Assembly (NCBI GenBank): GCA_016215325.1
Contig: JACRJV010000011.1
Location: 1 to 41,390 of the forward strand
DNA from: Candidatus Uhrbacteria bacterium
Lineage (GTDB): Bacteria > Patescibacteriota > Patescibacteriia > JACRJV01
Direction of reading: 5' to 3'
DNA: 41,390 nt
The stretch's first letter is position 1; each line of letters opens with the position of its first letter. A program made the translations under genes and the position numbers. Below the pieces are notes generated by a model. That model saw nothing but the letters and a program-made list of their open reading frames with translations. It searched no databases and had not been told where the DNA came from. Of the stretch, positions 15,019 through 17,291 are shown one piece after another.

Positions 15019-16071
15019 TCAGACGAGCGGGCCGATTTTGTGGGCGTGGGCTTCGAGGCCCAAATCGATGATCTTGCTCACGAGATCCATCGGCGTCATT
15101 CCCACATGAGCCGCTTGCTGGATGATGCAGGTTGAAGGCGTTGCACCGGGGAGCGTATTGACCTCGTTAAAGATGAATTCGCCACCGCGAATAAAACCGT
15201 CAATACGAGCATAACCGCGAATCATCAGGGCGGTATATGCCTGCACCATTTGTTCTTGGAATGCTCGCGTTTGCCCGGGCGCGATGCGCGCCGGGGTGAT
15301 CATCTTGGCTCCTCCGGGCAAAAATTTATCCTCCAGGCTCAACACGGCATCGTGGAGTGATGGGGGGGTTTCGGTGAGTGGCATGCTCGTTGGATGGCTA
15401 TTGCCCATGATCGTTGTGGTGATTTCCGTGCCATCAATAAATTCGTCTACCATGCAGACAGGATCCCACTGGAGTGCATCTTCGATTGCCGAGGCGATTT
15501 GATCAGACTCATGGATTTTAGTCACTGCGGTTGAGCATCCTTCTGCGATCGGTTTGACGACCAGCGGGAACCCCATTGCAGCAATGCTCATGAGTGCCGC
15601 TTCACGGCTGGTTTCCCATTGATTACGCCGTACAAGAATGTATCGAGGCGTTTTAATGCCAGCTTCAGCGACAATGCGTCGAGTTATGTCCTTGTTCATC
15701 CCAATCGCCGACGTCATCACACCCGATCCGCTATAGGGGATGCCCAAGAGTTCTAACAGCCCCTGCATGCAGCCATCCTCACCATATTTTCCGTGCAGGC
15801 CATTGAGGATAAAATCAAATTGCCCCCGCAGATCTTCATAGGGGATCCGTTGTGCGGTCGCCTCGAGTTGCTGTTCGATATCCGTTGTTGTATTCATGAC
15901 AACGAGTTTTATTGGGATCTTCCAAATCTCGCGTGCCCCGGATAGGAACAGAGGCGTGGCAGTAAATCGGGATGGATCGACATTTTGGTAAAGATGGCGG
16001 CCAGACTCCAATGAAACCTCACGTTCGCTGGAGGCACCGCCAAAAATTATTCCAACCTTTAATTTTTCCAT
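15019..16071 (-). CDS. ddl: D-Ala-D-X ligase, Phe-type (candidate D-Ala-D-lactate ligase)
   Basis: A 350-aa ATP-grasp ligase of the D-alanine-D-alanine ligase family. Motifs include VGIIFGGASSEREVSLESG, GKYGEDGCMQGLLELLGIPY, PLVVKPIAEGCSTAV, ARIDGFIRGGEFIFNEVNTL and the Mg2+-binding E-V-N. In the omega loop the family motif E-x-K-Y is here EDKF: Phe at residue 250 (codon 15322-15324) occupies the place of E. coli DdlB Tyr216. Phe at this place is found in the D-Ala-D-Lac ligases of Leuconostoc and related lactic bacteria, and the Y216F change in DdlB gives depsipeptide activity. I therefore infer D-lactate as a likely second substrate; this is not shown. A second paralogue lies directly upstream. 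Start ATG at 16071. Confidence 0.88.
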   Translation of the reverse strand: MEKLKVGIIFGGASSEREVSLESGRHLYQNVDPSRFTATPLFLSGAREIWKIPIKLVVMNTTTDIEQQLEATAQRIPYEDLRGQFDFILNGLHGKYGEDGCMQGLLELLGIPYSGSGVMTSAIGMNKDITRRIVAEAGIKTPRYILVRRNQWETSREAALMSIAAMGFPLVVKPIAEGCSTAVTKIHESDQIASAIEDALQWDPVCMVDEFIDGTEITTTIMGNSHPTSMPLTETPPSLHDAVLSLEDKFLPGGAKMITPARIAPGQTRAFQEQMVQAYTALMIRGYARIDGFIRGGEFIFNEVNTLPGATPSTCIIQQAAHVGMTPMDLVSKIIDLGLEAHAHKIGPLV

Positions 16072-16084
16072 AGGGTACTAAATC

Positions 16085-16200
16085 TGAATCTCGAATATCG
16101 AAATTCGAAACAAATTCAAAATTCGAATAGCTAGAATCATTGGTTTTGGATTTTTTATTTCGAGATTGTTTCGGGTTTCGGGTTTCGGGTTTCGGGTTTA
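16085..16200. repeat. Word-repeat array between the two ddl genes
   Basis: Bases 16090-16137 hold overlapping TCGAATATCGAAATTCGAAA-type words, and 16163-16200 hold four copies of TTTCGGG. More than 20 bases of the first part recur in reverse complement at about 28850-28873 (sharing TTTCGAATTTCGATATTCGA). The TTTCGGG copies are translated as the C-terminus of the second ddl. Confidence 0.85.
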
Positions 16201-17291
16201 AAATTAGTTGTTTCGATCAATTTCGTCATAAACTCGGTGGGCCCCCATTCTTCGTGTGCCGCTTGATGGAATGCCCAACTGGATGGCGCCATGCCAGAGT
16301 ATACATTCGGGTCAGTGATGAGGATGGTTTCGGCAGGGTACGGAGCGGGGACATAGAATTTTAAATCTTGAATCTTGGATGTGGACGGTTGAATGGACAG
16401 TTCTTTTGTGAGGACAAACCCGTCGATGCGAGCATAACCTTTAAACCCAAGAGTGGTAAATACGTCAACGCACATATGCTGGACCTCTTGGAGCCTCGCT
16501 GCGCTCACGCGCGCAGGAGTAATTTTATTCGCTGCCCCCGGCATGTATTTTTCGTGATAACTGAACAGGCGATCTTGGTGAACAGTTTCTGTTGGCTGCA
16601 ACGCTTGCGGGCCATTCGCCGTTTCCATCACGACGCAAGAGAATTCTAACCCCGTGATCCACGGTTCGATAACAATGCGATTGTCATGTTGGAGAGCCGA
16701 AGAGACCGCTGCCCCCCATTGTCCCGTTGAGTCAACAATCTCCACGCCGATGGTGGACCCGCCGCGAGCGGGCTTAACGACCAGTGGGAGCCCAAAGAGT
16801 GCGATTATTTGTTCGGCCAAATTCGGGCTAGACTGAATCTGCGTGCTCGTGATGACTATATAAGGAGGAATATTGATCGTCGATTGATGCGCCATGAGAA
16901 CCCTTTGCATTGATTTGTCTTGCCCGAGAGCCGCCGCTAATACGTCTGAGCCAATATAGGGAATGCCCAGGAGTGTGAGTAGCCCCTGCAGGCAACCATC
17001 CTCGCCGTACGAACCAAAGGTAATCGGAAAGGCGAGGTCGATTATTGTTTTTAAATCCTCAAATCGCACGCGTTGCGCTTCGGCTAAACGTGCTGCGATG
17101 TCTTCGGTGGTGTTTTGGACAACCAGTTGGATGGGTAGCTTCCAAAACTGGGCTTGGGCGTCCATGAATAACGGAATAGGTTCAAAGCGGCCCCGATCCA
17201 TCACGTTATAGATGTTGCGTCCAGAATTAAGGGACACCTCCTTTTCGGAAGATTTCCCTCCAAAAATGATTCCAATTCGGATTTTTTTCAT
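16155..17291 (-). CDS. ddl: D-Ala-D-Ala ligase paralogue, Tyr-type, with insertion
   Basis: A 378-aa ATP-grasp ligase, a tandem paralogue of the gene at 15019-16071 (shared IGIIFGGKSSEKEVSLNSGR, GSYGEDGCLQGLLTLLGIPY, LVVKPARGGSTIGVE, KITPARVSAARL, ARIDGFVL). Its omega loop reads HEKYMPG, keeping Tyr (residue 249, codon 16545-16547) where the neighbour has Phe, as in ordinary D-Ala-D-Ala ligases. Between ARIDGFVL and the metal-binding strand it carries about 26 extra residues (PSTSKIQDLKFYVP), partly encoded by an AATCTTGAATCTTGGA word repeat, and the metal ligand region reads TDPN rather than NEVN. The C-terminus (FKPETRNPKPETISK) is encoded by TTTCGGG repeats. It may be an active ligase with altered metal site or a decaying one. 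It lies 83 bases upstream of the other ddl. Confidence 0.82.
   Translation of the reverse strand: MKKIRIGIIFGGKSSEKEVSLNSGRNIYNVMDRGRFEPIPLFMDAQAQFWKLPIQLVVQNTTEDIAARLAEAQRVRFEDLKTIIDLAFPITFGSYGEDGCLQGLLTLLGIPYIGSDVLAAALGQDKSMQRVLMAHQSTINIPPYIVITSTQIQSSPNLAEQIIALFGLPLVVKPARGGSTIGVEIVDSTGQWGAAVSSALQHDNRIVIEPWITGLEFSCVVMETANGPQALQPTETVHQDRLFSYHEKYMPGAANKITPARVSAARLQEVQHMCVDVFTTLGFKGYARIDGFVLTKELSIQPSTSKIQDLKFYVPAPYPAETILITDPNVYSGMAPSSWAFHQAAHEEWGPTEFMTKLIETTNFKPETRNPKPETISK

Follow-up and report, generated by a model that had tools for sequence, protein, structure and literature searches.

D-Ala ligase (Ddl), an essential enzyme and the target of the antibiotic D-cycloserine, is normally described as a homodimer. 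Phe at the site of E. coli DdlB Tyr216 is found in Leuconostoc mesenteroides Ddl2 (LmDdl2, PDB 1ehi) and also in the VanC D-Ala-D-Ser ligases. In lactic bacteria, this single Phe or Tyr residue predicts depsipeptide or dipeptide activity, respectively (PMC5996685), and substitutions at Tyr216 and Ser150 conferred weak D-Ala-D-Lac activity on DdlB (PMC7691350). VanA and the VanG-type ligases (PDB 1e4e and 4fu0) have the same Ddl fold as the two proteins described here, and the same overall mechanism is expected. VanA has a different omega loop with neither Lys nor Tyr/Phe at positions 215/216, unlike these two proteins, and the D-Ala-D-Ser ligase VanG shows E-K-Y at the 215/216 site in the alignment. 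Tyr alone therefore does not fix D-Ala-D-Ala specificity.

Two Ddl paralogues are encoded on the minus strand of the window, which is the whole 41,390-nt stretch of DNA that was analysed. The open reading frame of gene A, the F-type paralogue, spans 15019..16071 (350 aa), and that of gene B, the Y-type paralogue, spans 16155..17291 (378 aa). In the direction of transcription B precedes A, with a gap of 83 nt, and the two proteins are 38% identical over 364 columns. Both contain the Pfam domains Dala_Dala_lig_N (PF01820) and Dala_Dala_lig_C (PF07478), scoring 87.5 and 142.4 bits for A and 89.7 and 124.5 bits for B against cut-offs of 34.6 and 24. On TIGR01205, A scored 257.9 bits, above the cut-off of 245.65, and B scored 223.1 bits, below it, with a match that reached residue 296 only. 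The predicted structures of A and B (pLDDT 83 for each) were both modelled as Ddl folds, and the best PDB matches of both models were Ddl enzymes. Since the lid loop of the A model (residues 239-254) was of low confidence, the models leave the lid question unsettled. A cca-like gene starts 2 nt past the end of A, and for this reason the two are likely to be co-transcribed.

The active-site residues were compared with those of DdlB and LmDdl2, whose reference sequences match PDB 1iov and 1ehi, respectively, from end to end, and of VanA (set to the letters of 1e4e). The alignment bore out the earlier note on this DNA in placing Phe250 of A (motif EDKF; codon 15322..15324, minus strand) and Tyr249 of B (motif HEKY; codon 16545..16547, minus strand) at DdlB Tyr216. 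In the Lys215-Tyr216 columns, A and LmDdl2 have K-F and B has K-Y. This assignment was correct but incomplete, as further sites are altered in A (Ser150 and Ser281) and in B (Glu270 and His63). In A, Cys179 (motif EGCSTA; codon 15535..15537, minus strand) occupies the Ser150 site, Thr314 the Ser281 site and a Cys the Leu282 site. Phe at the Tyr216 site and Cys at the Ser150 site were found in all F-type rows, with Ser at the latter in 35/35 other Ddls. The residue tables show that A keeps Lys97, Lys144, Glu187, Lys215, Arg255, Asp257, Glu270, Asn272 and Gly276. In B, the Ser150/Tyr216 lid is retained, and the metal ligand Glu270 is replaced by Asp327 (motif TDPNVYSG; codon 16311..16313, minus strand), an Asp also present in the Syntrophales Y-type rows. 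Of the metal ligands Asp257/Glu270/Asn272, A thus has all three, and B has Asp, Asp and Asn. Phe92 of B (codon 17016..17018, minus strand) stands at the site of His63, which is His in 35/35 other Ddls, and a Trp stands at the Leu282 site. The Gly of B at the Glu148 site is uninformative, as this site is variable among ordinary Ddls. The F and Y residue combinations recurred in every homologous pair found and were present in 0/35 other Ddls, so they are not due to chance. The site counts used classes defined by these same residues and are circular to that extent; independent support comes from a tree built without the diagnostic columns and from the absence of the signatures from the 35 other Ddls.

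When named genomes were scanned with protein A, using patterns that reach close relatives only, most of the matches were Syntrophales proteins with 45-50% identity to A. At the Syntrophales loci there was often another homologue, with 37-44% identity to A, located upstream in the same orientation. The downstream homologues carried the signature of A (GCST, K-F, T281) and the upstream ones that of B (K-Y, DPN). Both members were present in 21/23 Syntrophales genomes searched (17/19 in a C-domain search plus four further genomes), and in the two exceptions among the 19 the F gene was about 1 kb or less from the end of its contig. In some Syntrophales the two members were on different contigs; adjacency of the F and Y genes is not obligatory, and contig breaks could account for some of the split cases. 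The pair was found, with two matches each, in 5/297 genomes of a sample of the Syntrophales phylum and in 4/380 sampled genomes of the window's phylum (E <= 1e-60), namely the window's own genome and the genomes G063, G085 and G124. In the 57 genomes of a relatives search, which are the window's own genome and others of its class, the closest other Ddl shared 36-37% identity with B, and the Ddls retrieved were of the ordinary Tyr type. A literature search for a described Ddl pair or heteromer, or for Syntrophus with Ddl, returned nothing relevant among the papers it covered. Judged from their sequences, A and B are one conserved paralogue pair that is not unique to the window, its known bearers being Syntrophales and four genomes of the window's phylum. 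The dN/dS ratios in close Syntrophales pairs were about 0.10 (F) and 0.14 (Y), so both are functional genes there. The possibility that B is a pseudogene was rejected for the family on the basis of this purifying selection on the Y-type, although among the Y rows B has diverged furthest.

Phylogenetic trees were built after removal of the columns for sites 150, 216, 270, 272, 276, 281 and 282. The pair proteins formed one clade, with support of 100 in a 90-row tree and 100/99 in a careful 45-row tree. In the latter, the pair clade split into F (85/71) and Y (92/83) branches with only moderate support, and B clustered with the Syntrophales Y-type proteins (98/92). LmDdl2 was placed among DdlA-like proteins (98/99), and both LmDdl2 and VanA, each on a long branch, fell outside the pair clade. 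LmDdl2 shares with A the Phe at the Tyr216 site, but its Ser150 and Ser281 are unchanged and it lies on the DdlA-like side of the tree, whereas A has Cys and Thr at these sites and clusters with B and with the pair of Syntrophales. Since A lies in a separate clade with its partner B, its Phe would have arisen independently, and the rule established in lactic bacteria may not transfer to it. On this tree, the duplication is older than the point at which the window's pair and that of Syntrophales diverged, and a move between phyla is probable. That a Syntrophales contig had contaminated the bin was considered and rejected, as IleS on the same contig showed 42-49% identity to genomes of the same class, compared with about 33% to Syntrophales; the contig thus fits its bin. 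That IleS is class-like, yet protein A is 45-50% identical to the Syntrophales F-type, fits a transfer of the pair. The GC content across the region was fairly even (0.46-0.53).

Targeted family searches of the window's genome (92.6% complete) found no full-length Ddl other than A and B. Two other Ddl_C matches were considered as a third and rejected, being other ATP-grasp proteins without the Ddl N-terminal motif. MurB, C, D, E and F were present. In Syntrophales, alr is often located before the pair, and in the window's phylum the gene order was alr, Y, def, F in G063 and PBP, murA, Mur-ligase fragment, Y, def, F in G124, with murA upstream of Y, F in G085. A role of the pair in the cell wall is therefore likely, given that the genome yielded no other full-length Ddl and that the pair has alr, murA or PBP genes as neighbours elsewhere. 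An extra Ddl-like protein in G063 and the proteins of a second Syntrophales ATP-grasp tandem, among those inspected, were without the Ddl N-terminal motif. This second tandem (L142:475-2561) encodes Ddl_C-like ATP-grasp proteins without the Ddl N domain, and a Pfam scan of one of the proteins gave the C-domain only; such proteins may nonetheless act as ligases. A search for the alanine racemase C-terminal domain gave no match in the window's genome (92.6% complete) or in G124, though both have D-Ala-requiring ligases.

The reading that we tentatively prefer, at slightly less than an even chance, is that A does the ligase work and provides MurF mostly with D-Ala-D-Ala, with B as its divergent partner. 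A, with a full ATP and metal site, would be the member that catalyses. The loss of both lid hydroxyls of A (Ser150 to Cys, Tyr216 to Phe) would make the lid looser and may make A less strict about its second substrate, and the main product would be D-Ala-D-Ala for MurF. B, with its lid kept and its metal loop altered, may be a subunit of A, may regulate it, or may be a ligase of low activity. We infer here which member is active, what the product is and whether A and B physically associate. That the pair makes the usual substrate of MurF is the simpler interpretation, since it is the only full-length Ddl found and alr, murA or PBP genes are nearby elsewhere. A stronger form of the partner reading, possible but doubtful, is that the paralogues form an obligate two-subunit D-Ala ligase in which F would catalyse and Y would be needed for assembly or control. 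We know of no other heteromeric Ddl, so that A and B together would be the first. In known Ddl structures each subunit has a complete active site, and for this reason there is, to our knowledge, no precedent for complementation between Ddl subunits. The sole metal-ligand change of the Syntrophales Y-type proteins, which keep nearly all catalytic residues, is a conservative Glu to Asp. Y may therefore be fully active there, which counts against B being only a partner. The split of the two genes between contigs in some Syntrophales and the missing match for an alanine racemase domain in the window's genome also weigh against the preferred reading.

A and B might instead be redundant isozymes that both make D-Ala-D-Ala and differ in kinetics or inhibitor tolerance, like E. 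coli DdlA and DdlB, an explanation that we consider unlikely though not far-fetched. A and B resemble DdlA and DdlB in having two Ddl domains, the ATP-grasp fold, most of the ATP and substrate residues and a wall-gene context. They differ from them in the Ser150/Tyr216 lid residues, which A lacks, in the altered metal loop of B, and in being maintained as a pair within a separate clade. The purifying selection on both genes in Syntrophales, the predicted Ddl folds of both proteins and the near-complete catalytic residues of the Syntrophales Y-type are consistent with isozymes. However, the near-strict co-occurrence of the two members, together with the opposite active-site changes fixed in each branch, exceeds the needs of redundancy. 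In addition, the Y-type proteins of G063, G085 and G124 are without several conserved residues (N272H, G276I, H63L).

These same three counterparts of B bear on the suggestion of the earlier note that D-Ala-D-Ala and D-Ala-D-Lac specificities are encoded side by side. B is no ordinary Tyr-type enzyme, as shown by its altered metal loop and by the missing equivalents of Asn272, Gly276 and His63 in its counterparts of the three genomes. In a wider form, which we regard as unlikely, A would make D-Ala-D-X, X being D-lactate, D-serine or another acceptor, and B would make D-Ala-D-Ala, giving two possible wall termini. The Phe/Tyr rule of the lactic bacteria and the activity gained by the altered DdlB favour this, as Ser150 and Tyr216 are both changed in every F-type row; an altered or relaxed choice of second substrate by A is a fair hypothesis on these grounds. 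Against it, A lies outside the LmDdl2/VanA lineage and scored 169.8 bits on the D-Ala-D-Lac model NF000206 (B, 145.9), well under the cut-off of 550. On the general, VanC and VanG D-Ala-D-Ser models (cut-offs 520/650/495), A scored 175.2/149/210.9 and B 142.4/106.4/177.7, all below. The note saw no vanH- or vanX-like gene in the window, and the searches gave the same picture for the genome. No VanX (Peptidase_M15) was found in the window's genome, G063, G085 or G124, and no VanH-like dehydrogenase above the curated cut-off in the window's genome (92.6% complete). The one full 2-hydroxyacid dehydrogenase in that genome was the only candidate for a D-lactate dehydrogenase and is probably not one, its best fit being glyoxylate reductase (313 bits, cut-off 455; VanH 137, cut-off 540), though D-lactate could come by another route. 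The counterparts of B in the three genomes also seem the least suited to be a normal D-Ala-D-Ala enzyme. Of the note's claim, the change of A at Tyr216, joined by that at Ser150, stands, and the ancestry of A and the metal loop of B speak against the remainder; a true D-Ala-D-Lac option seems quite improbable from the sequences. We prefer A as a supplier of D-Ala-D-Ala over a dedicated D-Lac route because A has a separate ancestry, because VanX- and VanH-like genes were not found, and because the Y partner looks weaker in three genomes. An action of the pair outside the wall, for example on a secondary metabolite or a D-amino-acid peptide, is very improbable: the altered residues could mean new substrates, but the pair is flanked elsewhere by alr, murA and PBP genes, and mur genes are present in the window's genome, where no further full-length Ddl was found.

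If a lineage relies, as it seems to here, on two paralogues with reciprocal alterations, it would illustrate ways in which an essential ligase may be split or duplicated. The pair would also test whether the Phe/Tyr rule of the lactic bacteria predicts wall termini elsewhere. Syntrophus aciditrophicus is a named bearer that belongs to a cultured species, which makes the question directly testable.

Several minor features were observed at these loci. The Y-type and F-type genes are separated by a gene for peptide deformylase in two genomes of the window's phylum (L145:4446-4982, L144:4628-5179). Two MurF-like genes are present in the window's genome, one of full length next to a PBP-like gene and a shorter one, of 267 aa, next to an FtsQ-like gene (L082:826-2136; L083:1153-1953). 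The alignment shows an insert of about 26 aa in B just ahead of the metal-ligand strand (16326..16403, minus strand), which is not in the Syntrophales Y-type proteins; the F-type protein of G085 (L068:1459-2634) has a ~47-aa insert at about the same site. A C-terminal GPL motif is common to A and the Syntrophales proteins and is missing from B. Towards its 3' end, B runs into tandem copies of the 7-bp unit CGAAACC (window positions 16165-16195), which encode KPETRNPKPET.
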